DNA from: Perkinsus olseni
Taxonomy: Eukaryota > Perkinsozoa > Perkinsida > Perkinsidae
Length of the DNA stretch: 64,000 nucleotides
Reading direction: 5' to 3'
Assembly: GCA_013115135.1 (NCBI GenBank)
Contig: JABANP010000219.1
Location: 1 to 64,000, forward strand
Shown here piece after piece: positions 776-57,600 of the stretch. Both the position numbers and the translations under genes were made by a program. Each line of letters opens with the position of its first letter. The stretch's first letter is position 1. The notes beneath the pieces were generated by a model, which had not been told where the DNA came from, ran no database searches, and saw only the letters and a program-made list of their open reading frames with translations.

Positions 776-3700
776 ATGGCTGATGAGTTCGCGGTTAACC
801 ATCAGAATTACGTGGACTCCTTCGTCTCCAAGACGGACTCCAATCGGAAGGAGGTGAGGTCGACTCTCCCTGGGCGGGTTTGGACGGATTCTGACCTTTT
901 TTATATCTTCCGATGGACAACCTAAGATATGCCCCGTCTGCTCAGGGTTTGAGGAGAAAGAATTCCTTTACAGTTTGCAAGGTTGTGCGACCGATCAAGG
1001 GACAGCTGAAAAAGAAAGACGGCAGCGTCATCTCGGTAGCCCTTCCGGTACCCGAGTTCTCGGAGTCCCGAGTCAGGTCGAGATGGTCATAAACCATCTT
1101 TCGGAAGAGCCGCGATCGCAGGATTACTTTCTCATGGCGCACATAAAAGATCTCACGAAGCAAGAAATGGCGGAACGACAACAGCAGGATTTTCTCGCCG
1201 GAGTTGCACACGAACTTCGTAAGGCTGTTTCTGACGGAAAACTCTCATTCCGGTGGCGTACGGTATAATGATGACTGATGTCAACGGTTTGGCGAGATTT
1301 CGACAGCAGCCTAGCGGGCGAATCGTCAGGGGGGGGATATTTCGGTCAGCAGTTGCCGACTTTTTTACCCGAAATTTTTCGCCCAACTGTGGTCGTTAAG
1401 TTCGCAGGCCTTTATTGTTGAATCGAAATTTCATTATTTTCAATTTCGTCAATTATAAATTATTTGTCATCTCAAAATCAACTGTCAGCTTATTCACGAG
1501 GTTTCCTAAATAGAAATATGAATCAGCCAGCGGAGCGATCGCCGCTCCCTGGGAAAAATCAAGCTTTTCTCGTTCGAGGGCTCCCGGGTGGGAAGAGTCT
1601 AGAGCTGGGCAACCGTACTGGGGTCGAGGAAAGTACGGTACGGTTTACGTTTCAGACTGTCCACCTAGTACGGGTACGGAGAACTAGTACGTATTAAATA
1701 TATTGACCAACGCATACGTGTATTAAATTACGCCGTACTTCAAGTACGGCGTACTAGTACGGTACTTGGGAACCGCTGCGACGGGCAGTACGGGTACGGA
1801 GCCGTACTCGTAACCGTACTCCGTACTAGACCGTACCCGTACTGTCGTCCACCTTCTTTAAGAGTCGGACTTTAGGTACTCCTCTGAACGGTATTATCGG
1901 GCTTTCGGATGCCCTTATTAAAACGGAGCAGAACAAGGGGAGAACTAAGCACTTGAAAATGATCAATTCTTGCGGGGTAAGATTCGAACCTGGGTGGTTT
2001 GGTTGATAGCCGTGCGCGCTGCAGGTTCGACTAGTGGGACTGGTGAATATGATTATGGACGTTAGCGCGCTGAGGGACGGGAAGATGCAGTTGAATTTGA
2101 CGAAGACGGTTAATTGCAACGAGATTTGCGAGGAAGTTTGGGAGCTGATGAATATGGCTGTTGACAAAAACGGAAAGAAAATAAAAAAGGAGTCCGTCGA
2201 TCTGCAGATAGATTGCGATCCGGATCTTCCGGTGAGAGGATATTTTCGTGTGAATATCTTAGGTTGATCCTGGCGCATGACGGGTTAAAAGATACTCCCG
2301 AAATTGAAGATTCTTTGCTGTGCGCATTCAGTTGATTGAAGGCGACAAGGAGAGGCTGTCTCAAGTTATATTCAACCTCGTCAACAATGCCCTCAAGTTC
2401 ACCCCCTCTGGTAGGTCGCGGGTTCGAATCCCACAGAGGGCATTTTCTTAACAGGATTTGTCCGTATTGGGTCCAAGTTCGAGGAGGAGACTGGTACTTT
2501 GTTACTGTGCGTGGCCGACTCTGGGCAAGGCATCAAGAAAGAAAATTTGACGAAAATTTTCGAAGCTTTCGGACAGGAGGAAGAAGGGAAGGGAGGTGGC
2601 CTGGTAGGAACACCGTCTCGTGCTAACCTGCTATCGATTGCTTTTGGCAACGCGTTGGTACTGTCGGAATATGATTGCGATCGACGAACAGATTTATTCT
2701 GGTGGCCGTAAGATGAACCTCGAAGAATGGTAGCGATCTGGTTAACAAGAGTTAAATCATGCACGCACGCTTGGTTGGTTCCATGCGACAGAGATTTTAT
2801 GAATATCTTCAGGGTCTCGGTTTGGCGATCTGTACGAAGGTATCCGAGCTTCATGGTGGGAAGATATGGGTGGAGTCGGAGTTAGGGAAGGGTAAAAGTA
2901 TCAGTCCAGGAAGGGGGAGAATGTCTCCTCGTGATTTCACTCATGTTCTCGAGAAGGCCAATCTTCGTCCAGCCCGCAGTAACCTGAATAACTTTCTCTT
3001 CTCGCCTGCGAATAGTAGCCAGCCTGGCGCTCGGCCGTGTTCTTCGGAAAAGCATCATTGACGAGGCCGTACGGCACTCGGCTGATCGCGAGGCCTGCTG
3101 GAACAGATTTGGAAAACTCTTTTGATACCAATTTTTCATAAGTTCGTGCTCAGGCTCCCAATTCTACGTTCGCCTGCCGCAGCGCATCGCGGACGAGGTT
3201 AAAGTCGCGGGAGGAGCGCACGAGGGCGGCAAGACACCAACTGCTTCTGTCTTCCAGACGGCACAGATGGAAAGTGGCGGACCTCGGTCTCTATGGACCA
3301 GGGCCAGGTCCTTCGCTTCAGACGCACGGATGATGAAACGACATTCTTCGGCGACGAAAGGGCTTCTGTCAGCGGGTGGAGAAGATGATGACGGAGATGA
3401 AGATGGTGGGGATCGAACCTGGGTCGTTAGCATGGAAGGACGACTGTTTAACTTAGCGGCCAGCGGCGCTGATGTTGATGATGAGTTCGGCGAGGTCACT
3501 CTGCAAGAGGAGGCGCAGAGGAGGCTTGCGGAGGCCGGCAGCATCAGCATCCTCAGCTGTGATGACATCGTGAAGAATCAGGATGCCCTAGAGCAAATTC
3601 TAGACAGTAAGTGTCGAATGAAAGACGGGCTCGCGCTTTTTGCAAAGAATCTTTGCTGTGCGCAGAGGATGCCGGGTTTGAGTATAAGAGGAGTTTGGAT

Positions 3701-5135
3701 GGTTATGATTGCATTGAAACTTTGGAAAGCTGCGCCCTGCCGGATATCTTGCTGATATCGGGCGACATGACGACGAAGTCGGTCGGAGGGATGACGGGAT
3801 TCGAAGTACTTGATATAGTCCGGCGGGAGTTTCAGCTGTCGCTGCCTGTGGTAATCCGAAGGTCCCTGGTTCGATTCTCGGGAGAGGTATTTTTATCAGA
3901 TTATGATTACGAATGAGCTGACTACTGATGGTAAATTGGGAGCTGTTAAGCATTTTGCGAACGATGTGGTTCAAAGGAACGTCGAGAAGGAGGAGCTCAG
4001 TGCTCGGGTAGGTGCCTTGGTATACTCTTATGCGGATGGTCGTGGGTTCTACCCCTGAGGGTATCATTTTTTTATGCAGATACAATCCCTGGTGGTGCGG
4101 AAGCTGATGGATGATATCAGCTATGAACGGAAAGTTAACAGCGAGATGATGCAGAGGACGCTGCCCAAGAACGTCCTAGCCAGTATTAATAAAAGTAGGA
4201 ACAGGTCCCCGGATCGATCCCCGGCTAAGGCGTTTTTATTGTAATTTTTTCCTCAGATGAAGGCAGTTTGGTTGCCAACAAGTTCGAGAGCGTGACTTTC
4301 CTCTACGGGATGATGAAGGAGTTCGAGATTATCCAAGAAATTGTCCCCATCTCGCAACTCTGCGTTCTCCTGAATAAAATGACGACGGTTTTTGACCTCT
4401 TCTTGAAGCCTCACGATGTTTTCAGGGTCGGAAATTTACGAGAAAAATTTTTCCCCATCGCCCGTGTTCAGGTCGAAATGGACGGCTGTGGCGTGTTGGT
4501 GGTATGCGGGCATGATAGGCAGGAAGAACACGTCGAGAATATCTTAACTTACGGCAAGGACGTCCTGGGCGGACTGGCACAGTCTAACATCAAAGTCGCT
4601 GGAAAGAGCGTCGAATTTTTGATCGGCGTGGCTACAGGGTGAGAAGATGGAGGGATTCCACCTGACCACAATTTTTCCGATATTTTTTAGCTTTCACCGG
4701 TTTTTTGTCGTTGGACTTGCAACTCACACACACTTTCCGCCAGTGTTGGTCTTGTGTGTGTTTCCTTCGAAACTCCCGGTAAATTGTAGCTGTACCAATT
4801 TTCCGAAGGGGCAACTTCGTCCATTTTTCCTTGAATTTTCGGAATTTTTCGCGTTTTTTCAGGCCCTCCTACGGTGCTCTGATCGTTGGTAGTGGGCACT
4901 CGATGCCCAGTTATTCATTTTTCGGCGAAACCGTCGATCTGGCCAAGCATATGGCCATCACTGGGATAGGGAATCACGTTCATTGCACTGAAGCGACGAA
5001 GGTGGAAATCGATAAGGAGTATGTGGGATGCGAACCGGGAACCTTTCGATTACCCACTTTTTTCAGATACGAGGGCTCTGGGCTTTATGAGTTTGAAGAG
5101 CATGGAACGCTGGGGGCGAAGGAGTCTGGGCAGGG
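776..5135 (+). CDS. hybrid histidine kinase with receiver domain and degenerate class III cyclase domain
   Basis: Multi-exon signalling protein. Exons I can join in frame are 1122..1218, 1876..1976, 2025..2231, 2332..2410, 2455..2595, 2813/2814..2891, 3154..3606 (possibly with a further small intron), 3666..3850, 3900..4019, 4080..4194, 4257..4426, 4472..4638, 4863..5018 and 5067..5135. Exons near 776..853 and 945..1071 give a PAS-like N-terminus (VCKVVRPIKGQLKKKDGS). The HisKA motif AHELRTPLNGI keeps the phospho-accepting His. HATPase boxes are NLVNNALKF, DSGQGI, FEAFGQ and GLGLAI. A receiver follows (SCDDIV; PDILLIS; VIMITNE) with Ser where the phospho-Asp is expected. The class III cyclase fold comes last (FESVTFLYGMMKEF; VEMDGCGVLVVCG; SFFGETVDLAKHM), but its metal-binding Asp positions read M and C. 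I infer an active kinase coupled to a non-catalytic cyclase-like module. The true start may lie upstream, and the 3' end may run on into the next gene. Confidence 0.8.
1219..1875 (+). other. intron with dense GTACGG/CCGTAC palindromes
   Basis: This intron interrupts the histidine-kinase H box between HELR and TPLNG (the CGT codon is split 1/2). Its 3' half, about 1610..1850, is packed with GTACGG and CCGTAC units in both orientations. These include the near-perfect palindrome CGCCGTACTTCAAGTACGGCG-like block at 1732..1752. It may be a nested foldback element inserted in an older intron. Confidence 0.6.
1977..2024 (-). mobile_element. tRNA-like intron, antisense copy
   Basis: A 48-nt GT-AG intron in the kinase gene, joined in phase 0 between INSCG and VRLVG. 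On the minus strand it reads CCAGGTTCGAATC, a B-box/T-arm signature, so the tRNA-like part is inserted antisense to the gene. Confidence 0.65.
2232..2331 (+). mobile_element. TIR-type introner with CTTTGCTGTGCGC 3' motif
   Basis: Intron of the kinase gene between DCDPDLP and LIEGDKERL, phase 0. It contains ATCTTAGGTTGATCC followed by AAAGATAC, the inverted-repeat core shared by introns of RFC, the membrane protein, ALBA and QTRT1. It ends with TTCTTTGCTGTGCGCATTCAG, matching the intron at 3607 and sequences near 10922, 10970 and 22317. Confidence 0.65.
2411..2454 (+). mobile_element. tRNA 3'-half intron, sense copy
   Basis: A 44-nt GT-AG intron that splits a Gly codon (LKFTPS-G-FVRIGS). After GTAG it is almost entirely a tRNA from variable loop to acceptor: GTCGCGGGTTCGAATCCC, then an acceptor-like AGAGGGCA. 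A Pol III-type TTTT stretch and the acceptor CTTAACAG follow. The exon phases fit exactly and the ATPase N and G1 boxes flank it, so it is a genuine intron and not a tRNA gene. Confidence 0.8.
3607..3665 (+). mobile_element. introner with TTTGCTGTGCGCAG 3' end
   Basis: GT-AG intron inside the receiver domain; A|AG forms Lys in DSKDAGFEYK-like context. Its 3' end AATCTTTGCTGTGCGCAG is shared with the intron at 2232 and with several other spots. Confidence 0.6.
3851..3899 (+). mobile_element. tRNA 3'-half intron, sense copy
   Basis: A 49-nt intron between LSLPV and IMITNE, phase 0. It contains AGGTCCCTGGTTCGATTC, then an acceptor-like GGGAGAGGTA and TTTTTATCAG. The tRNA-like part starts at the variable-loop AGGTC, as in other copies, and the T run precedes the AG. 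Confidence 0.75.
4020..4079 (+). mobile_element. tRNA 3'-half intron, sense copy
   Basis: A 60-nt GT-AG intron between VGAL and IQSLVV, phase 0. It contains GGTCGTGGGTTCTACCCC, then GAGGGTATCA and TTTTTTTATGCAG. Same architecture as 2411 and 3851 but apparently from a different tRNA, since the acceptor-like end differs. Confidence 0.7.
4195..4256 (+). mobile_element. tRNA 3'-half intron, sense copy
   Basis: A 62-nt intron; A|AT forms Asn (INKNEGSLVAN). It contains AGGTCCCCGGATCGATCCCC, then GGCTAAGGCG and a T5 run. An extra T-rich tail precedes CTCAG. Confidence 0.65.
5019..5066 (-). mobile_element. tRNA 3'-half intron, antisense copy
   Basis: A 48-nt GT-AG intron that restores VEIDKEYEGSGLYEF across the junction. 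On the minus strand it reads CGAAAGGTTCCCGGTTCG followed by CATCCCACA. This is the same tRNA-like family as 50050 and the spots near 6575 and 10255. Here TTTTTTCAG lies outside the tRNA-like part. Confidence 0.7.
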
Positions 5136-5410: not shown

Positions 5411-8214
5411 CACATGGAGGTTGCTCTTGTTAGGGGGGTGAGGACGTTCTTGATGAAGGAATCTGTCGAAGAGGATCTCACACAGTACAAGTCGAGCACA
5501 CTGGATATTACTTTGATGAATGGGCTGGCCGGTGGTAGGTGGTGGGGATCGAACCTGTGCGGGCTTGAGGGACTGGGGTTGTGCCAGGACACGGTGGGGG
5601 AGGGTCGGGCGCTGATGCCGTTGCTGAGTTTGAATATCAAGTAAAGGAGTTGGAATACCGGATAAAAGTTATGAAGGGGTCGACTGACGAAACGCACATG
5701 TTAGAGACGGAGCTGAAGGCTAAAGGGAAAGTAGGCTTGGCTGTCATACCGGTGACCCGGGTTCGATCCGAGCATATTGAATTTTTCAAGGTCTGCCCGT
5801 CTGCCTTGCTGTCCATCGCGGAGCCCATAGAGTGTCTGTTGGATTCCCTCTCTTCGGCAGTGGGTGGTCCAAAAGAAGGTTCAGGTGATGACTGCCACTT
5901 TATCAAATCGATCATTCGGGCGCGCGCTTTTCTCAGGAGACTTGGTACCGCCAGTGTGTGAGCAACTGCAGAGTCTGGCCAGCGAAATGGCGAGCGCATG
6001 CACTGTGGTGGACGCTGCAAACTCATCTCTGAGAGTTTGCAACAAAGTGGCCCAGAGGGCAAACGTCATGGTAGATTCTGGGACAGGTAAGGGTCAAATC
6101 GATCATTAGGGCGAGCGCGAGTTGCTTTCCTGGTGGCAAAATTGAATCATAGGTCAGAGGATGGCGCTGACGGCTGAGCAGGGAGAGTCTATGGCCGCTA
6201 TATTGGAAGACGTTATACAGGCGGTTAATATCGCCTCGGGGGAGATACCGGAAGGCGAAGGTGGGTACATCTTGCAATCTTGCATTTCCTCCACGCTGTC
6301 GTTCAGGTGGCCCGCCTAATATTGTGGAGCTGGCTGATGAGATGGCGTCGATTCAGCAAGTGGTGGATCAACTGGCGAATCAGTATTCTACTTTAATGTT
6401 GTTCGTGCAGCAGCAGAAGGTGAAAATTTTATGGGAAAAATTTCGGGACGACCGTGCTGTAGATGTCGCTCGGACCGGCCGCGACAACTCCCGCCTCTGC
6501 GGATGCTTTCTCGTCGGTATCGAGGATGAACATGCTTGCGTCGAACGCAATAGGTAGGGATGTTGTTGGTCGCGGGGATCGAACCGGGGACCTTTGGGTG
6601 GGCAGGTGGTGGCGGTGGAATGGATGTGATGTTGCAGCAGCAATTGATGCTGAAGGATACTGAGATACGGACTGCTAATCAGACTATCACGGAGTTGAAC
6701 TCGCAGATGGCGAAATTCCAGGTGGTCGATGGTTGGGCGATAGGTCGTGGTGAGCTTATTTGCTCAGAGTGGCGACATAGATGTTGGAGGATTGACCCGG
6801 GAGATTGTTAAATTGAAGACAGATATAGCGCAGAAGGTGGGCAGGGGGTGATTGGGTTGCTGCGGGTACAAAGGCTGAGATTGTTGAACTTGAGAAGAAA
6901 ATGCCCAGACCCAGGATCGAACTGAGGACCTCCAGATCTTCAGTCTGGCGCTCTCCCAACTGAGCTATCTGGGCTGAGAGATTTTGGTTGTATTTTTTTG
7001 ATTAGCGCACGTGCTAAGCGGTGGAAAATCGTGAATTACTCAGGACATGATGCTCCAGCAGTGCGCAGGAGGGGGAGGCTTTGGTGGCCTTGGCATGGGC
7101 GCCAATTCGGCCGATGCTTCCGGTGGAGCAGCGTCCCAGGAGGTGTATCAAGAGCTCCTCCTCACCCAGCAGGATTGCCGCCACTTGCAACTTGAACTGG
7201 AATGGTAGTACTCGGATGACTGATTGGGGAATAGGGATGGGGGTGGGAGAGAATCTTTGCCAAAGATTCTTTGGGGATGGTAGACAGATTGTTAGAAAGT
7301 GGAAACAGAGCTGAGATCGGTGGATTGGGAATTTTTTGACTTGAGCTAATTAGGATCTACCCGTGTGATTGCTGAACCCTGATGCTGGCTCGTCACACGA
7401 CGAAGAGAAGGTTCTGTCCGCTTCCTCCACCCGATTCGTTCGCCGACAGGGCGGGTTCGTGGAGTTGATTTAGGCGTGTCACGAATGCCGTGCTTGCGCC
7501 TGCGTGCAAGCGTGAGTGGGGCGCCATGATAATCGATTTTTCGAAAAATCCTGCCGGACCCTTGGTCAGGCAGAACACGATAGTGACTTGGACTGCTCTC
7601 TATCTCGGTTTGTACTGATGGGAAAAATCACTCTTAGACGGGACAGGGTATTTTTGCTAGTGGGCTAATTCTGAAACTCAGAATCGATTCTGGAGTTGAT
7701 TTTTAGACGTATGCTGCGGTTTTTAGGATCGATAGTTCGGGTTGAACGCCGCCTACTGTATATTTCGACGCTGCCCGCGAACGTCACTGCGCCACGAAAT
7801 TGAATCGCAGGTACCATTCAAAGCTGCAGGAGTTGGTCGTTTCAACCAACCACCTTGCTCAGGACAATACTCAGCTTCAACGTAAGTCACGCGGGAGAGA
7901 TTCTTGAGCGTCTCTTCGAAAACTATCGTCCGTCAGGCGAACTGAGGGAGGCCCAATTACTGTTGAGCGAACAAGAGCGACAGCTTCGTCATCAGGAAAT
8001 TCGCTTACACGGGATGAGTAGGTCGGCCTTCTCGTCTACGGGTAAGATTTGTTTCCCAGGCGGGGGTAGTCCGGCGGCGAAATCGGCTAATTTGACGGCG
8101 AGTGGCGCATGGATGAGGCCCTTGGCGGCCCCGACGTCAGCGGATGCGGCTTCGCTGTATGCCTCTCTGGGGAGTGAAGCGACTTCGAAGATGCGCACGC
8201 TGCAAATGCCGTGA
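5411..8214 (+). CDS. coiled-coil protein, unrecognised (possibly C-terminal part of the kinase-cyclase gene)
   Basis: A series of short exons in which heptad-like sequence repeats: EYQVKELEYRIKVMKG with LETELKAKGK (about 5620..5730), CEQLQSLASEMASACTVV (about 5950), VELADEMASIQQVVDQLANQ (about 6320), MLQQQLMLKDTEIRTANQTI (about 6630) and EIVELEKKM (about 6875). A Gly-rich stretch lies at 7045..7200. A last exon carries LREAQLLLSEQERQLRHQEI (7945..8005), a Ser/Ala-rich tail and a TGA at 8212..8214. I see no catalytic domain. The 5' end is uncertain: it follows the cyclase exons after one long intron and could be the same transcript. At least two introns (5745..5800 and 6554..6605) hold tRNA-like sequence. 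The exact exon borders are not resolved. Confidence 0.5.
6554..6605 (-). mobile_element. tRNA-like intron, antisense copy
   Basis: A 52-nt GT-AG intron in the coiled-coil gene; G|GT forms Gly before GGGMDVMLQQ. The minus strand reads AAAGGTCCCCGGTTCGATCC, matching the copies at 5019 and 50050. Confidence 0.6.
6902..6974 (-). tRNA. trnF-GAA: tRNA-Phe (GAA)
   Basis: A complete cloverleaf on the minus strand. The acceptor GCCCAGA pairs perfectly with TCTGGGC, followed by discriminator A. The D arm is GCTC/GAGC. The anticodon stem CCAGA/TCTGG encloses loop CTGAAGA with anticodon GAA. The T arm CTCAG-TTCGATC-CTGGG closes with one wobble pair. A TTTT run follows the discriminator directly, as expected for a Pol III terminator. 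No intron is needed. It sits antisense between coiled-coil exons at about 6890 and 7045, so it lies in an intron or a gap of that gene. Confidence 0.9.
7664..7735. repeat. MITE-like CAGAATCGATTCTG element
   Basis: Copy with CTAATTCTGAAACTCAGAAT, CGATTCTGGAGTTGATTTTT and a TGCGGTTTTTAGGATCGAT tail. It lies in the spacer between coiled-coil exons. A near-identical beginning, CTAATTCTGAAACTCAGAAT, occurs at 34562, which marks this as a dispersed element. Confidence 0.6.
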
Positions 8215-12580: not shown

Positions 12581-12793
12581 AATCGATTGGTATGGCGAGC
12601 GCTTTTTACATAGACTAGCTCTGTGAGGTTGGCTTTAGTGAGATGCGCAAGTGGAAGATTCTTCTGCATCGGAAGATACCCTTTTTGACCGAGTATTACT
12701 TGTCCAGTTATGCTAAGTGATGGAGTTATGGAGGTATCTAAGGTTGATCATGGGAAGATGCGGAATAGGTCAGGTCGCCGACATTGCTTTGCT

Positions 12794-13939
12794 ATGGCTG
12801 TTCCTCCTCCTTCGCTTGACCTCGATCTTCTGCGCAGCTTAGCCGTCACCGTGCCGGACCAGTCGGACTCGACGTCTTCGAATCGAGACATCTGGGAGAC
12901 CAACGAGGCGCTGCTGGCGGGGACGGAGTATCCAAGGTTGAACCTTGCAGTTTGCGCAGCAGCAAGATACCATTCTATGGAGGTCGATTGTTGCCAGTGC
13001 GTCCATGAGCAAAGATACGACCACTTGCGCACAGAGAAGATTTTGGGAGCTCCTGAATTTGTGAAGGCGTGGCTGGGCGAAGGTCCATCGGTTGAACTAC
13101 CGGGTATTGGGAAATGCTATCCGGTGGAATCTTTCGACGCCGAGGAAAATAGCAAAATTATGGCGGCCCGTTGTCCCTGGTGTCAGAAGCGTATCTTACA
13201 TTTGGTGCCTAAGAGTTTGCTGCGAGATCATGCGGAATCTAATTTGTGTTTGCCGAGAGAATCTTGCGCGCGCACGCGGAAGAATTTGGGAATAGTGGCG
13301 ATTGAGGGGTATCTTGGCTGGCGAGGTTGGGCTGAGTGGGATGGGAGTGTTGGTATCTTTGAGGCGATCGAGCGAGCTTGGCCGGGCGATATGTCCCGGG
13401 GACCGATGGGTCGGCTGGAGGCTGATAGCAAGTGGTACGACGTATCTTCCTATTGCGTGAAGTGCAAGGTTGGACCTAAAGATTCTTCTGACCCGGTTGA
13501 TCGATTTGCGGCTAGGTGTTTTACCACTCGGAAAGATACATCTCGCCAGACTAACGACTGGGCTTCTCGACGACTTCGAGAAGGGCTGGCCAAGCACCGA
13601 TCTGGCGGTAGTCTGGACGACGCTCTCCTCTACTACGACTCAGCACTCGAGCTCAACCCAAGGCATCCAGACGCCCTCGTGGCCAAGGGGGCAGCGTTGA
13701 CGACTAAGGGTAGCTACGGTCGAGCGGTGCAGTGTTTCGACGAGGCCCTTCGGGTGAAGCCTAGCCATGGCAATGCGAGGCGGTATAGGGAGATTGCTTT
13801 GAAAAGGAGTGGTATGAGGTCGGTCGGGTCTTCGTCTGGTTGCCGATCGGTGATTAGCTTGGAAGATGATTCGGAATCGGAAGGCTGTGAACGTCGAAGG
13901 CATAAGCATCATCATCATAGGAAGAAGAGGCGTGCTTGA
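12794..13939 (+). CDS. TPR protein, TTC14-like C-terminus
   Basis: An open frame from ATG 12794 to TGA 13937..13939. The start MAVPPPSLDLDLLRSLAVTV is acidic/Ser-rich. The C-terminal third has two tetratricopeptide repeats, GSLDDALLYYDSALELNPRH with PDALVAKGAA, and GSYGRAVQCFDEALRVKPSH. The segment NARRYREIAL and a basic tail (RRRHKHHHHRKKRRA) follow. The TPR pair plus basic tail resembles TTC14, a nuclear RNA-binding TPR protein; that assignment is inference. The middle (about 12926..13560) is open but contains GTATCTT four times and AAGATAC three times, including a full introner-like block at 12927..12978. Several stop-free introns may therefore be hidden in this frame and the real protein may be shorter. 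Two CxxC-like pairs in this middle part are not a domain I recognise. Confidence 0.6.
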   Translation: MAVPPPSLDLDLLRSLAVTVPDQSDSTSSNRDIWETNEALLAGTEYPRLNLAVCAAARYHSMEVDCCQCVHEQRYDHLRTEKILGAPEFVKAWLGEGPSVELPGIGKCYPVESFDAEENSKIMAARCPWCQKRILHLVPKSLLRDHAESNLCLPRESCARTRKNLGIVAIEGYLGWRGWAEWDGSVGIFEAIERAWPGDMSRGPMGRLEADSKWYDVSSYCVKCKVGPKDSSDPVDRFAARCFTTRKDTSRQTNDWASRRLREGLAKHRSGGSLDDALLYYDSALELNPRHPDALVAKGAALTTKGSYGRAVQCFDEALRVKPSHGNARRYREIALKRSGMRSVGSSSGCRSVISLEDDSESEGCERRRHKHHHHRKKRRA

Positions 13940-32700: not shown

Positions 32701-35000
32701 CCACGACGCCCAACAGTCCATCAAATCCACAATATCAGTAACAGAGAGCAGCTCTCGCACTCCAACGGATACGTCCGAGCAGGACTCGGCCACCTGAGTC
32801 GGTCCAAATGGTGACGCCCGCTGCTGCCCGCCTCACCTGTCTTGCAAGGTCCTTCTGAATGGCGTAAGCGAGATCATAGACAGCAGGAGGATACCTGACG
32901 ACGCGGAGATCAACTCACGCTTTTGAATTGCCTTTTTTACCGACTGTCCTTGTCCATGTACATGGAAACCATACCTTGCTCGATGCTGCTGAATTCTCTC
33001 CGACTCAGTCTCTTAGAAATCTCACCGGCCACTTCCTTTTGGATCTCTGAAAAAAAATCAGAAAAAATAAAAATTTTCGGTAAAAAAATAATGCTCGCGC
33101 AAAAACGGTCACCGGTTCTCACCATTGTACTGCCTTGATCCTCTCAACTCCTTGCCGACCCTCATCAGCATGATGAGCGACTCATTGGTCATGCTGGGCA
33201 GCTCGTCTTTGACTCTGGTAGTTTTCACGCATATAACCTGGATCAGGTCATAATTTTCGGAAAAAATTTTTTGAATCAAGAATTTCCGGCAACTTTTGCG
33301 GAACGAAGCCGTTGAGGCTTTGATCCAGATATTCTAGGCTAACCTACGGCACTTCCAGAAAATATCAATATCCATGTAAAAAAAGTTTTCTAAAATACAA
33401 TGCAAAATGTTTATCGAGGCCCTCGACAACCGGCAGTGGCAGACAGCCTCCACAAGGAGGACTCCCAAAGCAGGCCCGAGCGCCCTGACTCGGGACTTCC
33501 TCCATAAGCGCTCGGCGAGCGCTCTTACGTCAAAAAACGCTCTCCAATCCTTCACAAACCTCATCAACCCCCGCATAGATAATCGCAGATCATCCAGGGA
33601 CATACCTAACCCACAGCAAAGATCAGTACAAGTGCATGAGGGAGGAAACTTACCCGGTGCAAGTTCAGCAGCCGCGGGCACGATGACGTCAGTGTAGTGC
33701 TTTGTTCGCAGGCCGTGACGGCCCGCTTCGTAAAGGACCTGCCATGGCTGCTGTTGACCTTATTTACGAGAAAAAAATCCGCGCTGAGAATTTTAGCGCT
33801 TTTTTACTGGCTTGTTACCAATAATAAATTGATTGTAAAAAATAGTAAAAATCGATAAAATTATTAATCGTCCGCCTTATTATTGCCTTCACGGTCTCAA
33901 TGCCACAATGACGATCTGAGAGTTGTTGGAATCTCTCCCTAAAAACTTTCATACCGGCTCATACCGAGCGTCCGACACACATAGCAGTTAATAAATGAAA
34001 AAACACGACATGATAATTTTCATTAGTAAAAAAATAATGAAAAAAACCCAAAATCTAACCGAGAACGTACCACAGCCATCGTGTGGGGGTCCATCAGTTT
34101 CGCCCGGGCAACACTGTGACAGGTAAAATCGAAAACTTCAGGATGGTAAACCATCCCTTGCCCTAACAGTTGCAGCGTCCGGCCCGCCTGAAAAGTGTCA
34201 CCGTGACACTGTCACGCTAGTGACAAGGGCCGCAATAAGACTTACGTGATGTAATTTCCGTTCCATCTCTTTCGGATCGACGGCGCTGCCTTCCGGGATA
34301 TTCATAAACCGGAAGCATAACGGCGTCACATCTCGCAAAGGGGCCCGCAAGCGCAACTGAAAAGATGCCGTAGCCAAGGATCGAACCTGGAACCTCATCT
34401 ACTACCTTAACGAAGGCCTCCATCAGGTCCAGTACGTCCGTCCATTCCAGTGAGGAGCCTTCTGCAGTTGCTACTGAGACCGTGCGGTTAACCAAATGCT
34501 GCAACCTGCACAAACACAGCTAGAGGTGTCAAAAAAACAAAGTGATACCCCTGTTAAGAGACTAATTCTGAAACTCAGAATCCATCCCGAAAACGGCTTT
34601 CTCATACATAAATGCGGTTCCAGAATCGCTTTCGGAGTTGGTTTTTTCACACGTAAAATGCGGTTCCAGAATCGATTCTGAAATTGATTCCTAACACGTG
34701 AATGGGCTTCCAGTAGAATTGGTTTATTGAATAACCCTACCTGCCGTCCGACAGCATATTCCTTGTTGCCGCTTCAGCAACGTCAGTCGTACTTGTCAAT
34801 TCTTTCAATACTGAAACAACTTTCTTCCCCAAGCCACCTCTAAGCGAGAACGTACTGGTCATGCACTGCGCCGTTGTAAAACAATCCCCTTCGCTATCGA
34901 CCCGGGCAAGGCAGCGCTCAACTGTGGCTTCCACGTCATCTGTAAGAGAACCATTTCCCACAGCCTCGCAGGCCCCGCAGCAATTATACTACCCGCCTCC
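29757..35000 (-). CDS. RAP-domain helical-repeat protein, probable organellar RNA-binding
   Basis: A multi-exon minus-strand gene. Readable exons in coding order: GLGKKVVSVLKELTSTTDVA (about 34840), LQHLVNRTVSVATAEGSSLE with DVLDLMEAFVK (34505..34406), LRLRAPLRDVTPLCFRFMNI with GSAVDPKEMERKLHH (34356..34250), GRTLQLLGQGMVYHPEVFDF and ARAKLMDPHTMAVV (34195..34075), MSLDDLRLSMRGLMRF (about 33600), YLTLASLARLANDLEVNISL (about 31750), NLYKDPETLASTLWAMAKVG (31230..31170), VQENFVTAALASANSM and NAWSQILWSLLQQ (30960..30850), and MRKFVQENARRLNRFVQELS. The C-terminal block EFKHILTGQNLMYQRIFERR, GLRVAIIGEREW (30030..29900) fits a RAP domain. About 38-residue helical repeats plus RAP are typical of FASTK/OPR-type factors acting on mitochondrial or plastid RNA. 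One intron (34357..34405) is a tRNA 3' half. The borders and both ends are incomplete. Confidence 0.6.
34357..34405 (-). mobile_element. tRNA 3'-half intron, sense copy
   Basis: A 49-nt intron of the RAP gene between LMEAFVK and LRLRAPLRD. In gene sense it starts GTAGTAGATGA, then GGTTCCAGGTTCGATCC, an acceptor-like GGCTACGGCA and TCTTTTCAG. The tRNA-like part starts at the variable loop and the T run makes the polypyrimidine tract, just as in the kinase introns on the other strand 30 kb away. Confidence 0.75.
34560..34735. repeat. MITE-like CAGAATCGATTCTG element, composite
   Basis: Two or three overlapping copies: CTAATTCTGAAACTCAGAAT, ATAAATGCGGTTCCAGAATC, then TTTTCACACGTAAAATGCGG and TTCCAGAATCGATTCTGAAA. 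The internal ACGTAAAATGCGGTTCCAGA block also occurs at 35118 and, reversed in part, at 11125. It lies in an intron of the RAP gene. Confidence 0.7.
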
Positions 35001-35796: not shown

Positions 35797-35869
35797 TAGT
35801 CCCGGCGGGGGTCGAACCCACGACCTACGGCTCATAAGACCGTCGCTCTAACCACTGAGCTACAGGACC
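35797..35869 (-). tRNA. trnI-UAU: tRNA with UAU anticodon (Ile?)
   Basis: A complete cloverleaf on the minus strand. The acceptor GGTCCTG/CGGGACT has one G-T end pair and one U-G pair; the discriminator is A. The D arm is GCTC AGTGGTTA GAGC. The anticodon stem ACGGT/GCCGT encloses loop CTTATGA, anticodon TAT. The T arm GTGGG TTCGACC CCCGC has one mismatch-like pair. TTTTT follows eight bases downstream. Base 37 is G, whereas decoders of ANN codons normally have A37, so a change from a CAU (Met) parent is possible. Confidence 0.8.
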
Positions 35870-39331: not shown

Positions 39332-39504
39332 CCACTACGTCGTTTCTCTCGAAGTGGTCGAGTTTGTGTTGAGTATATTGGTAGCAAAGAAACTGAGTTT
39401 CTGGCGGATTAGATAACTCAACGAAAGTCGTTTACAGTGGTTCTCGAGTTATAACTACAGTAATTCTAGTAATAATCACTAATAATTCTAGTATTTTGAA
39501 TCAC

Positions 39505-39590
39505 TAGGCCTTCGTAACGAAAAAAGCGGAGCTCGACACAAAGTTTCGGGTTCGAATCCCAGCACGGACTTTTTCCGTATTTTTTCGGGT
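39505..39590 (+). repeat. tRNA-like SINE fragment
   Basis: GAGCTCGACACAAAGTTTCG, then GGTTCGAATCCCAGCACGGA and CTTTTTCCGTATTTTTTCGG. It matches 15707..15775. It lies downstream of QTRT1 and is not spliced as far as I can tell. Confidence 0.6.
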
Positions 39591-48699: not shown

Positions 48700-51600
48700 A
48701 CTCATCCCCAACCGAATCATCAGGGCTCGTCGAAGACGGTGTTTCATCAGCTGGAGTGCTCGGGTGCTCCCGATGCTCGCCACGTTGAGCCAGCAACCTT
48801 GTCTCGAGATTCTTCCACTTCGTCTGAGGAGAGCAAGGACTTCATTACCGCAAAACCGGTTTGCTCCGGCTCAGTTAGGGGGTCTCTGTAACGATCGACA
48901 CGCTGCTTGACAAAATGCCGTATTAACAATCTGTCGGAAGAGTTCGGAAGAACACTCGTGGATCCTAGTTGACGTATCAAAAGACAGTCCCAGTTCTCGA
49001 GAGAGACGTTCTCAACCCCATCAGAGTGGTTACCCTGATTTCATTGCAAGTGAGCTCCTTCCAAAGCAGAATGCTCTTGCCGCCGCCTCGAGTAGCGACA
49101 AGCCCCCCTGCGCAGCCGGTGAGCTCATCGACGTCCTCAGGGTTGCACACGTCCTCGCTCGCCTCTGCCGACTCCCGTTCATCCTCATCATCTGGCGTCT
49201 GATGGAAGAACACGGGTGGGATTGTCACCTTCACAGGAACACACAGAAGGTGTCACTCCACTCAAGGAAGAGGATTATTTTAACAAGGATCGGTCTACGT
49301 GATCAGCTAACCGGGCTACGAAAAGAAGCATGAAAATGACACAAATCAGAGATGGCAAACGAGGCGCTAACGAGCATCCTGAACGCCCAGATCTTGTGAA
49401 GTTAGGTGAATATCATGATTCAGAGGCACTCACTTCCGGTGGCGATGGCGTTTCCGCTTTAGGAGTCGCCGTTGGACTGCTCGCTTTCTTCCCGGGGTTT
49501 GACCCCGTCAAATACATCCTTATCGCACCCATGGCCGCACCCGCAAGATTCCTCGCTCGCACAGCCAAGATATGATTCGTACCGTTGAACAGTCGCGCAT
49601 TGCAAGCGATTCGAGATAGATGCCGCTCAACCTCGTGAAGCGAGCTGTACTGTCGCCGCGCTGAGAAAGAAGAACCATGGCCGGGAGGTGAAGCCGCCAT
49701 GTTAACAACCAGGAGACCCCGGGTTCGAACCCTACATGCTAAATCACGTAGATCGTCCAGTCCGATAGGCTTTTCCACAACCTGCGTATATTCAGTTCCC
49801 GTCGGCGCATAATAGAAGTCCGCGAAAGGCCGGGTTTTGCATGAGGTCCTGGGCGATCTTCAACACGACGTGATTCAAACGATGCTTCTTCTTCTTCAAC
49901 TCCGACAAAATCGGATCGTGGCTGGCCTTGATGTGACCCGAAGATCTCCGCTTCTCGCCGCTCTCGAGTTGCCGTTTCCGCTGACGCGCTAGGACTCTTA
50001 TATTCCACTCGCTATCAAATGCCTGACAGAAATAAACCAGAATGAACACCTGCTGGGGATCGAACCGGGGACCTTTCGGTTACCCACTCACCTCATGATA
50101 ATATTGCTTCCACAAATTGATATGCCTTTCCTTCTCTTCTTTTTCCGCATCTGTCATCGTCCCAAACCAAGCCTTGTTCCGGGAGCTCGACGAGTAGCCG
50201 TACAGCTGCGGCGGGAGGATAATATCTACAACCGTGCCAGTCAACCATATAACACCCGTTCATCAATTTTAATGGCATATCTTCTACTAATCATATCAAT
50301 GCAAGTACGGCAAAAACCACTCTGATGAGGATGAGCAATTTCGGCCCCTTCGGAGAGCTTTCAGCAGGAGGGCCTGTGTGACTAATTTGACCCCGATCAT
50401 TATCATTCAGAAAGATCATTCCTACTAATTTCGCAAACACTCAGAATAAGCGCCGACAAACCAAAGGTCGTCAAACGAGGGACCTCACCTCGTGGGAGCC
50501 TTTCCGTCTCGGTGTCGACGCTCGAGTCGAGCTGCAGGTCAGGAGATCTCAGGCCCAGTTCTCTCCGCCGTGCGTCAACTGCTTCATAAAAATCAAACTC
50601 CTCCGGAGTCCTGAGAGTAAGAATACGAGAAATTGACAAATAGCCGGAAATGAAACCCGAAATAGTTGACCGTTCACAATCAATTCGACCAGATCAATGA
50701 CACAATCGTTGAGCGAAGAACATCCAATTTCGGATATTTTTGCACAGGCTTGGCTGGGCCATGAACCCTCGAGCATTTACTAGAAGCTCCGAAATTGCGA
50801 CGCAACTCACCTTGCAAGAATCTGATTGAGGTGATAATCATCCGTGGCGATCGTGTCCACCTCGATTCCGGAGTTATGAAGGGCCTGACAAAAAATCGAA
50901 ATCCTCGTGCATCACCGGAGGAGAATGACAACTCCCCGGCAACGTACTTCTCTCAGGCGATCTCTTCGCTGCGCCTCCGCTTCCCTATTGCCGCGATCGT
51001 TGAACATGCCGTGCCGGATGACCAGAGCGTCTTGATCTACTCACAAAACCCATGGAGGGGAAAGTCGCGGAGGTTCGATCCCGGGGCCTACCCATTTTTT
51101 CTCCTGCTTTTTGTAACATCCCTTCTTCAACGCTGTTAAGAGTTATCAGGCGAAAAGTGCGCACCTATGAGGAGAATCTTTTCGCACGCCGAAGAATCTC
51201 CCTACCTCGGATTTTTGACCCAATCGGTGAGCTCGACTTTGAGCCTGCTCATCATTCTGAGGATTCCAATCAGAGTCGAAGATGATAACTGTGTCCGCAG
51301 TCTGAAGATTGATTCCCAAGCCACCGGCCTGACGAATTACGAAAAAGTTGGTATGGCCTTGCTTTTCTGAATGCCTTACCCTAGTAGAGAGGATAAACGC
51401 AAAGTAGTTCGAGTTGGGAGAGTTGAAGAGCTCGATCCTCCTCTCTCTGTCATCAGCGCCGGTACTCCCATCGAGGCGAAGATATCGGAAATTCCTACAG
51501 ATGACAAAATCGAACCTATCTAGATCATCCCGCTCGCGCGAAGCAGGTGAGAGACTCTTGGACGAATCTTTTGAGAGTGCCGATGAAGAGAACGCGAGCC

Positions 51601-54600
51601 AGATGGGATGAAGATTCTATACACTAACGCGCAGGATATCAGCTCCAAACCGGTAAGCTACTGGATGGCGACGGGGCAGTTCGGACGGACCCGGAATCAT
51701 CCAGATATCCCTCACTCGAGTGAGGCAGGATTGACAAGAATGCGAACCAGATGAGCAGAACTTCTGCTCATCGCTGAGCTGCATCGCTGCTTCGCTCACA
51801 GCTGCTGGTTCGCATTCTGCTGCAGAAGATTCTATGTGGTAACAAACAGAATGTCGATTCAGATTGCCGAAGATATATCGACCGAAACTCCAAGATACAG
51901 AGGTTAGGAGTGTGGACAGCGTGCGGCTTCGATCCGCTAGCCAGAAATTTCACCCACGCCGATCCTCATCCGTAGGAGATGTTTCCAATCGTCGGCATTG
52001 TTTACTCTTATCAGTCACCCTCAATCCACCCTCACGAAGGGAAAAGAAGTTGGACCGTGCTCAACTCACAGATGAAAGATTCCTAGCGCCACCGACCTAC
52101 CGGAACGTTAGATAGAGTTCCAGGATATTCAGCAGCTTCGTCATCTGCGAGAATATCAACACTCGGTGCCCGGTGGCCTGACAACGAATCGGATTAGTGA
52201 AGAACCCCCAGGGAATTTCAGGGATTTTCGTTCTTTGCTGATTTGCCCGTTGAAAATAAATAGGAAAAATCGGAACGCAAATGTGCTCCTTAAGTGATGT
52301 CTCTTCTGGATTTGCGCTAGGAGTCCTCTTATAATCCTTTAGAGCTGGGTTGGGTACATACCAACTACTGACGATACCAAGTAAAGAGCAAGGACAGAGA
52401 GTTTCCTCGCGAAAATTGAGAAGGGTGCAAGATTCCAAGTTTGGCAGGCCAAACACTTCCCGCTGGTACTGGCTTAGGGCTCGAAAGAAAACGCCCACGT
52501 TGGTTATCGAGGCCGATAATGGATCAGTGCCGCTGCTGGTGTTCTTGTTGGCGGAGTCGGCCTGCTTCTAGGCATCAATATCATACCGAGTGGACACCTG
52601 TGACGGAGTGGACCATGACCCTGTAGTCAGGACGCAGGCACTCGTCAAGTGCGCCAGCTCGCCAAACCAGACAGATGTCTGAACCGACCGCAACTGGATG
52701 AACCAATCAGAGAAAGATCCTCCAACTCCTCGAATATAGCAGCTGCGCGAGACGAACCCCTTCGAGGAGTGCAAGTCGAACCTCCGAAAGGTAGACGCAA
52801 TACTTCACCCCTCAAACTGTGACAGTCACTGTCACTGTTCCGTCACTGTGACGGGTATGCGTATCACCCGTGACGCGATGACCTTCAAGAACGGTCAGAG
52901 CAGACAGGTTGAGAAGCGCAGTCAAGTAGCCAAAGGAGGCAGTGGTTCACAGTGGCCACGGAGCCATTCGCCACTGTGACGTTGGAGCTGTGGTCGAATC
53001 GTAGTGATGCCGTTCTTGGCGCCGCGACATCTTCGCTGCGGTCTAAGTTTCCGAGTGAGCTGCGGCACAGAGCAGGGCACTCCAGGGACAAGACGATTTG
53101 ACCAGTCTAAAAGTGCACCAATGACCCCATCATCATCCTAGCCAAGCGGAGGGTCCTTCGAGACTCCACGGTCCGCATCAAGGCCAGGTAAATCCGAACG
53201 GGTAATCTCTCCCTGCTATCTTCGACGGTAGGTCTGAGTTTGATCCGTACTCTGCAGATAGCGGGCTCCGTGTTTATGCGACCAATACCACAAGCCACAG
53301 CCAAAGACGGCGCTCGGCCGAGTACCAACAAAAGGGAAACCCGATGAAAGGAACCCTCTGGAGCTCAATAGCTTAACCGCATAGTGGCATCGCAGGGGCT
53401 GCCACTACTGCGCTTCTTGAAGTTTCATCAAAATTACTTTTCCCAAAACTATTTTTGCATTGTAATAATGTGAAAAATTCCGCCATTTCTCAGTGGCTGC
53501 GTGACCGACCCTCAGTTTGGGCAAAATTCCGTCCAAGGCCATCATCTTTCCGCATATCCTTATCAGCGACTCATCGATAGGAAGGTCAATGTCGTGACAA
53601 AATAGATACGGATGGTTACACACCTGTAAAAATGCAATCGCGCGCGCCCAACTGATCGATTTCTCCTACTTTCCGTAGTTGCATCTGCAAGTTCTGGCCG
53701 ACCGATATATACTCAGGCGGGGACTCATCTTCCTTGCGACTACTCCCTCGCGCGTGTGCAAGACCACGCGATTCGATCTCGGTGTACCTAGCGCGCGCCC
53801 TCGTGATCGATAAGGCGACCATCCATCATCGGCTCACATCCTCTTTTGAGAGCTCGTCATCTCACACCAAACTATCTGTTCGGTCTTTTTCGGCAGCTGC
53901 GCTTCTACCTCATTTTTGTCTCTGCGCAGTACAAACGGTCGCAGTACTTTGTGGAGCCTGCAAAAAGCTGACAACGTCATAGTGGAATTCATCGGGCGAC
54001 CCAGAAAATGAATTTCTCCAACCGTGATAAACCGATTCCAACGCTCGAAAGCCGCCAGAGTTTCAACTAGCTCTTCGTCAGAACCCTACCTGTCGACGAC
54101 TAGTAGTTTCTCTTCCTCACCGATGCTCTCCCATATTTCCTCGCCACTGGCTTCCGAGCCCTCCGACCCTACAGAACAGCAATCAGGGTAGGGAATGTCA
54201 TACAGCACTCAATTTCGCGGAGAGAAAATTTTGCCACTGAAAATTTCTGAAATGGCGGCAATGGAAATTTCCGTTCCAATTCAACGCGTGGCCGAAAAGT
54301 GTATTATACACAGTCCACTTGACCACGGACATATCCTATGTCGAAGCCTGCATGATACACTGATGGTCGGAAAAGACCAACAAGATGGACGGGCTAATTC
54401 TGCCATAAAACCCCAGACCCCTTCCGAGCTTCTCACCAGCAAACCAATTGTGGAACGAATCGGAGTTGTCGAAGATACTCGGCATGAGGAAATTGAGGAG
54501 GGCCCACACCTCCTGTATGTCATTCTGCAGTGGCGTCCCTGTCAACGCCAAACGCCTCTTCGTAATGTACCTGAATATACTCTAACGCCCTCCCTGGGAT

Positions 54601-57600
54601 TCGAACCCGCGACCTACTGCTTGTTCAGCACTTGGACAAGCTTCGACTTCGGATTCTTCAACCGGTGAGCTTCGTCAACAATAAGATACTCCCATGCGAA
54701 CTTCCTAAGATCGAGGCATACCACATCACATTAATCGCGCACAGGGAAGATTTTCGAAAGATTCTCCATCCCAAATCGCCGAGCTAAGATGCCACGACTG
54801 TTGTTCAGTTACATTGACGACAAGCTCTCAGAATACTTATCTAAGCTCAGCTTAGACGACCAGCCGAGTACTCTGGACAAGGTAGTCACGTATCCGAGGT
54901 CGCCCGAGGCACACGGCAAAATTTTCCGCCACGAGTGAGAATTTTCCGCAGCAATTTCCTACCGAAAAATATTTCCTGCGCGTATCTCTCCAACCCCACC
55001 CATCGCGAACGAGCTCCTACCTAAGATACTGTTTGTCTCTCAATACGTATGCATCAGTAGTCAGCAGGACTTGAAACGGTAGCGTATAAACACCACCCGA
55101 CGCCGCAGACGCTCCCGAGGTTGACTGTGGTACTTGGAAGAACCTATGAAAATCACAAAAAAATAATTTTCCTGAAAAAACCGAAAAAATACTTCCGAGC
55201 GTTCATTGCTACACAAGACCCTCTATCTCACAAAACAGCTCATCCTCGATGATATCTTCCGCAGCTTGGTCATCTTGCATTTCCTCAATTTTTCTCATGC
55301 AGTGTCAAGCTGCCCACGTATTTCATCTTCACAATCCACACTGTGAGTAAAGAAAATAATATTTTCCGCTATTTTCAGAGTTTTTCTTTCACACCAGCCG
55401 TATTCATATCACAGAAAAATTCGAGGCGAACCTCATATCGCGCACCCGAGTGACCACGGGAAAGAGAGTTGAACAGATAAATCCCACACAACTAAGGAAT
55501 CTTAGCTCCACCCGAGGCAATAACAAAAACGAAAGATACTCTTCCCCCCCCCCTTCTCACCTTTCTCGAAGCTCCTTTGCGTTGCTGCTTGCTGCCATCG
55601 TACAACACAATTTTGAAGGACGGCAGCCACCGTTCGAACTCTTGTTCCCAGTTGCTCCTCAGTGTGCTCAGCGGGGCAACTATCATATGGGGACCACGGA
55701 TACCCTGACATGATCAATCTTGCAATCTTGCATTTCCTCAACGACCACAGCAGTCATGCCTCCTTAATCCAAAAGTTTGGATTCGCATGAACGCCGCTCG
55801 ATGAGAATAAAATCCATGGATCTTGCTATCTTGCATTTCCTTAACGAACACAGCAGACACGCCTTCTTTCTACGCGGTTCGATAAAAGCGAGATCCACAA
55901 ATCTTGCTATCTTGCATTTCCTCAACGCCTACCTTATATTCCTGGAGATAAGCTAGGAGAGAAATCGTTTGCACAGTTTTGCCGAGTCCCATACTGTCCG
56001 CTAAGATACCATTCAACTTATTGTTAAATAAAGATACTAGCCACTCGACACCCTGAGAAGAACCATGGTGACCTAAAGATACGCCGGAGTATCTTTCCGA
56101 CCTTCAGTTGGTAGTCACGGAGTTTCCGACCTCCACCAGCTAAGATACTCGGTTGCTCAGTGAGGTGCTCTTGCACCGTGTGCGTGAGACGGAAATATCT
56201 TAGGTTGAAGCATGTAAGATACAAATAGGTCGGAGCACGTGTACCTTTCCTTGGCTTGTATCAATGAATGTTTCGAAGCGGCTTCCTCTTCTTCCTCCTG
56301 CCATGCAGAAAAGGATCTTCAAATTCTCACATCCCAACTCTCGCTTTTCCATATCAAATAATTTCCCAGTCCCCGGAAAACGAAGAAAAAAGCAAAAAAA
56401 TCGCGGAAAATTTCTCCAAAAGCTTATCCTCTAGAAATGACAAAATACCTCTTGCAATATTTCATTATGAGTTTTAACCCACGTGAAGCTGTCAAAAACT
56501 TCGAAAAAAGTACATGTAAATTTCGCTCGCCCGAAAATCTTACCATATGCTCCAATTCATTTTCCAGCTGAGTATCATCAACAGTATCATCAGCAGCCAC
56601 TGCCGCCTTCTTCTGCTCCAGTACGCGGTCTCCGAGGCGCTCGATGAACTCCGTGGTTTGAGCGATCAATCGAGCAAGCCTAGTGTTGCCAGACTCTCCT
56701 AGCAAACGGAGATACGCTTCCTCGTCTTGAGATCTGAAGGAAGAGGTCGTGGGTTCAGTTCCTGGTGACGACAAAATTATCGAAATTTACGAAGCTGTTC
56801 TGTAACGTGATTCTGGAACCCGTTTTCGGAGCAAAATCGATCGCATGATCGATTTCGGGTTGAAATTTGTCTACTAAACACGGAGTATGTTAGACCTTCA
56901 GAATTACACCGATATTGAAAAAATCGTGAGGAACTTGCACACATGCGGAAATTGTCACCGCGGATTAGACGCAGGTTCGATCCCCGCACCTGGCATTTTT
57001 AATCTCACCTTAAAGCCTGCATTCTCTCTCTCTGCATAGGGTCAGCATCAGTCTCGCCCATTTCCTGCCGTTTCTTGGCTCCTAATTTCTCCAGACAACT
57101 GAATGCCGTTTGCCTTGTGAAGTCCCGCAACCGCCGATGATGCCTGCAAACACAGGCAAAATAGCCGAGTAGTTCAGCACACAGGAGACTCTCCCGTGGG
57201 CAAAATTTCGCGCAAGATCGAATCCCAGTCGATGCAATTTTCCGGCATTTTTCCCTCCCACTCACTCGAAAAGAAGTCTCCGATGCTGCAACATCTCCGC
57301 TAGAAACCTGCAGTAATTTAGAACGACTCAATAAGGTCGGCAGAAATCTTGCAATCTTGCTCTCACTTGCCATTTCCGCTATTTTTCTCCTCCTTCTCAA
57401 TCTTGCTCTTATCTCTCTGCGACATCTTCTTGCTTTTGGTAGATCTCTCTATCACGCTCGGCGGAAGATGCCAACTGATTATAAAAAATTTGCACGCATG
57501 CGCATGTGCACGCGTGCAAACCTGTTCTCCTCTAGTCGGACGATCGGTAAAGTCTTCATTATCATATCCCTTTTCAACTTCCTCTGAGCCTCCAGCACCC

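Follow-up and report, generated by a model that had tools for sequence, protein, structure and literature searches.

A tRNA-3'-end-like module in short introns of Perkinsus olseni, present in both orientations

Introduction

How new introns originate is a long-standing question. It arises in concrete form in the first 64,000 positions of contig C134 (hereafter the window), which belongs to a Perkinsus olseni assembly of 61.48 Mb and 968 contigs. Very short introns in several genes of the window contain a stretch that looks like the 3' half of a tRNA. Did these introns come from tRNA fragments, and what would such fragments contribute to splicing?

Intron-making elements known as introners have been surveyed by Gozashti et al. 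2022 (PMC9860276), and Farhat et al. 2021 (PMC7789003) describe them in Amoebophrya. According to the available text of the former, the largest survey we found, most introners spread by DNA transposition, and part of the introner families have target-site duplications (49/130) or terminal inverted repeats (72/177). The words tRNA, SINE and polymerase III are absent from the survey's main text, and the Amoebophrya paper mentions tRNA twice in its available text, both times for synthetases. The mostly open-access literature on introners, on intron gain in connection with tRNA or Pol III, and on Perkinsus introns (including PMC9399869 and PMC12730881) reports, in its available text, no introns made from tRNA tails or B boxes. 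If a B-box module does occur as a maker of short introns in both directions, intron gain would be linked with Pol III transcription machinery.

Materials and methods

Introns were predicted with a simple, sequence-based gene model that is blind to the module and recovers the protein-supported introns of the window; with loose settings it overcalls introns. The module sets, as distinct from the plain motif counts, leave out the tRNA-Ala array of locus L018 and the two tRNA genes of the window. Locus L023, a near-duplicate of L022, was left out as well, except in the sequence logo, where identical cores were merged, and in the placement of 57 elements. For the overlap between modules and introns, palindromic double matches were removed, which reduced 53 modules to 49. 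The set searched for A boxes and acceptor partners holds the 85 elements that remain after 35 ARAGORN tRNAs were taken out. T-stem pairing was measured in 94 distinct strings from 100 of the 310 genome matches described below, with three presumed tRNA genes excluded and three repeats merged. A set of 90 modules was obtained from these 94 by dropping one member of each of four recognised homologous pairs. Contig C8 is homologous to C134, as a haplotype or a duplicate, and agrees with it at 93.8% of 7,742 aligned bases in the first 8 kb. The ORF at 12689-13936 of the window has 98% identity to a P. olseni protein across 92% of its length.

Results

Module-bearing introns of the window

The four segments that an initial annotation had singled out as introns built from tRNA 3' halves are correctly placed. 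They have GT...AG ends and contain AGGTC, AGGTT or TGGTC, the T-arm motif, an acceptor-like strand, a T run and the closing AG. Three of them lie at 2332-5135 on the forward strand, where one or more genes join histidine-kinase ATPase, receiver and class III cyclase-like parts and contain at least four sense module introns; the Pfam scores of the receiver and cyclase-like parts are below the cut-off.

Protein homology requires removal of the intron at several module-bearing junctions. The sense intron at 2411..2454 (+ strand, phase 1) interrupts a histidine-kinase ATPase domain. Its removal gives NALKFTPSG^FVRIGSKFEEETG (the peptide reads NALKFTPSG^FVRIG). The spliced peptide covers nearly the whole of HATPase_c with E=1.5e-25, compared with 2.5e-5 for the upstream exon read into 2411-2454; a solved kinase aligned with it is longer by one residue at this point. 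The C8 homologue has an identical module and a T-rich tail that differs by a 9-nt indel and three substitutions. The sense intron at 3851..3899 (+, phase 0) lies in the receiver domain (LPV^IMITNE), with weaker support for the junction: the spliced peptide matches Response_reg with E=6e-5 and 23.6 bits, less than the Pfam cut-off of 30.2. The sense intron at 4020..4079 (+), in which G57 of the B box is changed to T (at 4045), joins a linker without a domain. Our gene model prefers a start at 4008 for it, and both starts are in phase; in the C8 counterpart the leader has diverged and the module is identical. A further sense intron lies at 4195..4256 (+, phase 1) and has T54 of the B box changed to A (at 4211).

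On the reverse strand, the motif-blind gene model predicts the fourth of the named segments, 34357..34405 (sense module, phase 0; no conserved domain spans the junction), and another sense intron at 50022..50090. The sense intron at 54571..54617 (-, phase 2) interrupts a SNF2-family gene after NKQ. Its removal joins VLNKQ^ to the next 17 residues in a gapless alignment with chain 6eg2_A, a probable global transcription activator; an ISWI protein aligns with the same peptide with a one-residue gap. This SNF2 intron and positions 2411-2444 of the histidine-kinase intron are near-copies, 91% alike over 34 nt.

The window also contains modules that lie in introns in the opposite direction, a feature absent from the initial account. 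On the forward strand, an intron with a partial antisense module is predicted from the reading frame at 5019..5066 (GGTTCGCATCC at 5036; DKE^YEGSGLYEFEEHG), presumably in the C-terminal region of the cyclase, judging from a cyclase motif. Antisense modules also lie in introns predicted by the gene model at 5535..5587 (+) and, under loose settings only, at 1977..2024 (+). At 6555..6606 (+) we recognise by eye a likely intron of 52 nt with an antisense module, which the gene model fuses into a longer intron. On the reverse strand, a degenerate antisense module lies in the predicted intron 56734..56790. Judged from sequence, the observation of a tRNA-3'-half-like module in short introns is thus confirmed as real, and it is larger than first described.

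Antisense introns elsewhere

Two antisense junctions outside the window are also supported by proteins. At L022, the sequence LLT^GTPIQNN in an ATPase of the SNF2 family is divided by an intron whose module is antisense; after splicing, the peptide aligns with CHD1 (E=1.9e-20) and has three extra residues upstream of the junction. At L012, removal of 8070-8119 joins MDTDP^STKHEIL of a tubulin-like protein; the spliced peptide matches alpha-tubulin with E=1.2e-12 and has two extra residues downstream of the junction.

Seven modules are sense and five antisense in predicted introns of at most 75 nt, and 15 are sense and nine antisense in those of at most 250 nt. When 57 elements were placed (palindromes and L023 included), introns received 14 sense and 12 antisense elements, predicted exons held another 12, and 19 lay elsewhere; some of those in exons or elsewhere look by eye like missed introns, others do not.

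These counts bear on the idea that a Pol III terminator arrives as a ready-made 3' splice site. In sense introns the T run of the module does lie in the pyrimidine tract, as had been proposed. In antisense introns the pyrimidine tract is the complement of the purine-rich AGAGGTC region (GACCTCT...), not the T run. Since antisense modules are about as frequent in introns as sense ones, and two antisense junctions have protein support, the T run cannot be the general source of the 3' splice site.

Structure and abundance of the module

The module corresponds to tRNA positions of about 44 to 73: AGGTC, the T arm with the B box (GGTTCGANNCC), 11 nt, an A and a T run; the 5' half of a tRNA is absent. 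A logo of 53 elements from 262 kb shows signal from position 44 onwards and ends with a T run at 74-78; the elements were chosen by motif, so that the motif part is conserved by construction. Upstream of position 44 the logo shows nothing except a weak A at 38. The sharp start near 44 bears out the proposed breakpoint at the variable loop, and the T run comes directly after A73. The consensus T stem pairs perfectly (CCGGG/CCCGG). A strict A-box pattern occurs upstream of none of 85 elements, and the downstream control is also 0/85. No upstream complement of the acceptor-like strand was found in this set (mean best score 8.55 vs 9.20 in shuffled sequence).

Is the motif simply common? In the window, GGTTCGANNCC occurs 16 times on both strands, a count that includes the tRNA-Ile gene and one palindrome counted twice, compared with a mean of 0.58 in 60 dinucleotide shuffles. 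Genome-wide, the B-box 11-mer occurs 4,458 times and its reversed control 602 times, tRNA genes included. With AGGTC before the B box (AGGTCNNNGGTTCGANNCC) there are 903 matches and two for the reversed control, and 310 of the 903 have TTT at tRNA spacing, compared with none for the control; real tRNA genes are among both the 903 and the 310, and one A-box-type pattern matches 258 places. That we picked out by eye a short motif common in the genome can be all but dismissed. Shorter or looser patterns would fit it: GGTTC (163 vs 136 expected) and TTCGA (226 vs 210) show a slight excess only, and a hairpin-only scan gave 14 matches vs 2-12 in 20 random sequences. The counts of GGTTCGANNCC and the enrichment in introns refute this explanation.

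In predicted introns of at most 75 nt we find 12 of the 49 modules, compared with a mean of 1.6 when positions are shifted (maximum 5 in 300 shifts). With a limit of 250 nt the overlap is 24 of 49 vs 13.7 (maximum 22); the other 25 lie outside predicted introns. The looser gene model gives 13 vs 3.6 (maximum 10) at 75 nt and 30 vs 22.2 (maximum 33) over all introns, the latter within the control range. The excess thus belongs to very short introns.

Scored with a profile trained on motif-selected elements, some of which lie in the scored introns themselves, 135 predicted introns of 38-62 nt include 12 above 16 and 121 below 6. At a cut-off of 15, with the same profile, 8.9% of short introns pass, whereas the rates are 2.2% for exon windows (n=1115), 1.1% for windows in long introns (n=658) and 0.9% for random windows (n=1377). 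We considered whether all short introns are decayed copies of the module and rejected this, as the scores are bimodal.

One source or many?

The initial annotation took the different acceptor-like ends to mean that several different tRNAs had been sources. Captures from different tRNAs would covary in the T stem. At least four of five T-stem pairs form in 52 of the 94 modules (from 100 of the 310 matches), compared with 52.9 +/- 3.5 after shuffling, with two of the pairs fixed by the search pattern. The three free pairs (49-51 with 63-65) form 137 times in the 90 modules, compared with 144.7 +/- 5.7. Complementarity within individual modules beyond the shuffled level is thus not found in either set, which counts against such captures. 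A perfect consensus T stem without covariation in single modules is what one would expect of one diverged source. In addition, the nearest of the 94 modules differs from each of eight tRNA isotypes, an incomplete tRNA set from which Asp was left out as not comparable, at 4-8 of 30 positions.

The modules also form subfamilies. Among the 90 modules, 40 pairs differ at three or fewer of 16 free positions, compared with 5.8 in column shuffles. After near-identical strings were pruned, 85 modules still give 20 close pairs vs 5.0 (maximum 13 in 200), and positions 59-73 are linked. Some of the close pairs may be allelic or paralogous. Absent covariation and the clustering of copies fit one or a few diversified ancestors. 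The proposal of several source tRNAs therefore does not hold up well, and one diversified tRNA-like consensus would fit better than repeated capture of different tRNAs.

Other registers and searches were tried. A T-arm register with a 6-nt loop gives at least four pairs in 27 of the 94 modules (from 100 of the 310 matches) vs 29.7 shuffled, and was rejected. An iterated profile search drifted to an unrelated repeat, AGAATCGATTCT, and was dropped; in its mixed set of 228, two of five pairs exceed shuffles (52:62 with 190 vs 174.2, 49:65 with 156 vs 143.6). Palindromic repeats of the AGAATCGATTCT type lie in the window at 7661, 11077, 22052, 34558 and 35082, some followed by GGAACCGCATTTT, and are superficially module-like.

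Conservation of the B box

Compared with a Markov model over 248 kb, the excess of B boxes is 31 for intact copies and 30 and 29 for those with one and two mismatches; the three-mismatch class lies 209 below expectation, a misfit because of which the two-mismatch figure means little. Some of the one-mismatch rows are the opposite strand of intact ones. By our own arithmetic, decay at the rate of stem positions predicts about six one-mismatch copies per intact B box.

Between C134 and C8, 17 strict and three relaxed modules, the latter chosen after the alignment was inspected, differ at 16 of 660 core positions and 38 of 639 positions of the adjacent flanks (Fisher p=0.002). The 17 strict modules alone give 15/561 vs 26/543 (p=0.08), and the lower divergence of the core arises partly because one allele was chosen for an intact motif. 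Strong constraint on the module core is therefore suggestive only. The B box seems to be kept, whether for spread or for TFIIIC binding.

Each of the 17 strict modules for which C8 sequence could be aligned occurs in both contigs, in part by construction, and among modules with aligned C8 sequence the comparison contains no empty site of a module intron. For seven other strict matches there is no C8 sequence in the alignment; the one at 39549 lies inside a 303-bp insertion, 39508-39810, that is absent from C8. The insertion is flanked by 4-bp copies of CTAG (39504-39507 and 39811-39814) and contains a B box and then T runs. It has a relative in L006 (a copy with 91% identity) and a diverged one at about 15729. 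As C134 and C8 differ at about 6% of aligned bases, a comparison of Perkinsus strains could test intron gain directly.

Discussion

With a probability of about one half, we suggest that these spliceosomal introns were seeded by an introner-like P. olseni repeat whose body of about 36 nt derives from one tRNA-like 3' end. The body would consist of the variable-loop AGGTC, the T arm with its Pol III B box, then 11 nt, an A and the T run, and it would have inserted in both orientations. Where the module is sense, the 5' splice site would be found, as judged by eye, between 2 and about 17 nt upstream of position 44 and would sometimes coincide with the tRNA-like GTAGGTC, while the T run would contribute to the pyrimidine tract. 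Where it is antisense, that tract would come from the complement of the purine-rich AGAGGTC stretch; the GT would lie beyond the T-run end at L022, L010, L024, L021 and L012, and within the module at 1977, 5019, 5535 and L009. Insertion may be DNA-based, or a Pol III transcript may be reverse-transcribed. That the repeat descends from a tRNA, that it is mobile and how it inserts are what we infer here.

As with introners, similar short introns occur in unrelated genes: we find introns with the module in histidine-kinase, SNF2, tubulin-like and other genes. Both the module introns and the introners of the survey, whose method allows either orientation (PMC9860276, available text), occur in both directions or may do so, and in both the splice sites are partly supplied by the element. 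Amoebophrya, a parasite of the dinoflagellate lineage, has many introners (PMC7789003, available text). In the texts available to us, known introners are recognised by similarity from intron to intron, whereas the Perkinsus introns share a module of about 36 nt that resembles a tRNA 3' end. Many known introners also have inverted repeats or target-site duplications, and by eye we see neither a target-site duplication nor a terminal inverted repeat at the module-intron junctions inspected, which may speak against the introner reading. The missing empty site in the C8 comparison, the 25 of 49 modules outside predicted introns and the loose-model overlap within the control range also weigh against it. 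So does the fact that the B box is kept better than the rest of the module, since plain decay of inserted copies would not leave it so.

A more specific version can be put forward. In it, a solo B-box module from a tRNA 3' end is a propagating intron-maker with hundreds to thousands of copies, its B box stays intact for spread or TFIIIC binding, and it can act as an intron in both directions because either end contributes a pyrimidine tract on one of the strands. We regard it as a tentative possibility. Dinoflagellate introners are reportedly also treated by Roy et al. 2023.

Perhaps the intron has little to do with the function of the module. We find it rather improbable, yet worth weighing, that the modules are functional solo B boxes, TFIIIC-binding (ETC-like) sites under selection for which an intron is a tolerated container in a gene-dense genome. 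Preservation of the B box far beyond that of stem and flank (the excess of 31, 30 and 29 in the three classes), the missing upstream A box and the C134/C8 difference between core and flanks would all be expected of such sites, and ETC sites that have an extended B box but are free of Pol III have been described (PMC12409998, available text). The Markov misfit, the p value of the strict modules alone and the part played by ascertainment weaken this case, and it leaves unexplained why A-TTT follows at a constant distance of 11 nt, why very short introns hold more modules than expected and why there are subfamilies. ETC sites number eight in yeast and over 1800 in humans (PMC12409998, available text). 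They resemble our modules in having a B-box motif without an A box or tRNA body, as in the 85 elements above. However, in the available text of PMC12409998 and PMC5391098 they are chromatin sites, not intron bodies, and unlike them the modules keep a fixed distance to a T run and are overrepresented in introns of about 50 nt.

The original proposal was that different tRNAs had repeatedly given up their 3' halves, with the U tail as pyrimidine tract, and we now consider it unlikely. The tRNA spacing and T run in the logo and the differing acceptor-like strands agree with it, and in the introns at 3851 and 4020 the likeness to a tRNA seems, by eye, to reach further, into the anticodon arm. It is opposed by T-stem pairing at the shuffled level only, by antisense introns about as numerous as sense ones, and by the lack of a close parent among the tRNAs compared and of an upstream complement of the acceptor-like strand. 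Quite unlikely, too, is an origin of the modules as remnants of a larger repeat of the Pol III type, with introns arising from its truncated copies. The 303-bp insertion would be a candidate, being absent from C8, flanked by CTAG, equipped with a B box and then T runs, and related to copies elsewhere; but it has no AGGTC before the B box, and the logo shares nothing outside positions 44-78. The reading that we prefer to these remains introns seeded by a repeat from one tRNA-like 3' end.

Two other kinds of tRNA-related sequence can be set apart from the module. tRNA-derived SINEs retain the 5' part of a tRNA, including the A and B boxes, and have a body or tail in addition. The modules share with them a high number of tRNA-like copies and a T run; unlike SINEs, they have no body and no A box, and the logo lacks a 5' half. 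tRNA genes and pseudogenes share positions 44-73 and the terminator with the modules. We rejected this identity too, because the modules have no 5' half, no acceptor partner and no covarying T stem. In the window, Rfam at its gathering thresholds and ARAGORN recognise two tRNA genes, one for Phe (6902-6974) and one for Ile (35797-35869), and an ARAGORN run that permits introns adds a doubtful SeC. The tRNA-Phe gene is complete, on the reverse strand, and lies antisense in a predicted intron (6837-7043 or 6837-7005) of a forward-strand gene. Elsewhere, L018 (C13, about 186-190 kb) carries a tandem tRNA-Ala array with units about 141 bp apart, and tandem tRNA arrays (Ala and, by anticodon loop, Ile, Cys, Lys and alternating Lys/Asn) occur in L018, C778, C142, C112, C154 and C172.

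Further repeats were seen in the course of this work. A second family, ATCTTGC(A/T)ATCTTGCATTTCCTCAACG, occurs in the window at 6269, 55717, 55820, 55901 and 31034, in L022 at 512 and in L027 at 7843; loosely predicted introns, in both orientations, contain six of these seven places. A third, GGTATCTTAGGTTGAAGC...AAGATACAAAACAGGTCAAG, has short inverted ends and occurs in the window at 9141, 14645, 38219 and 56194, among other places. In introns of the loose gene model, the ATCTTGCAATCTTGCATTTCCTCAACG repeat lies three times in sense, three times in antisense and once in none (7 places); for the repeat pair, GGTATCTTAGGTTGAAGCTTG is found in 11 places (6 sense, 3 antisense, 2 none) and AAGATACAAAACAGGTCAAG in 15 (6, 3, 6). 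Loose-model introns cover much of the sequence. That two further repeats lie partly in predicted introns, in both orientations, makes an introner-rich genome plausible. The genome also contains a spliced leader, CCGTAGCCATCTTGGCTCAAG, that matches the P. marinus leader given in the available text of PMC9399869, and regularly spaced copies of a perkinsid-type spliced leader occur in C268, C596, C41 and C270.
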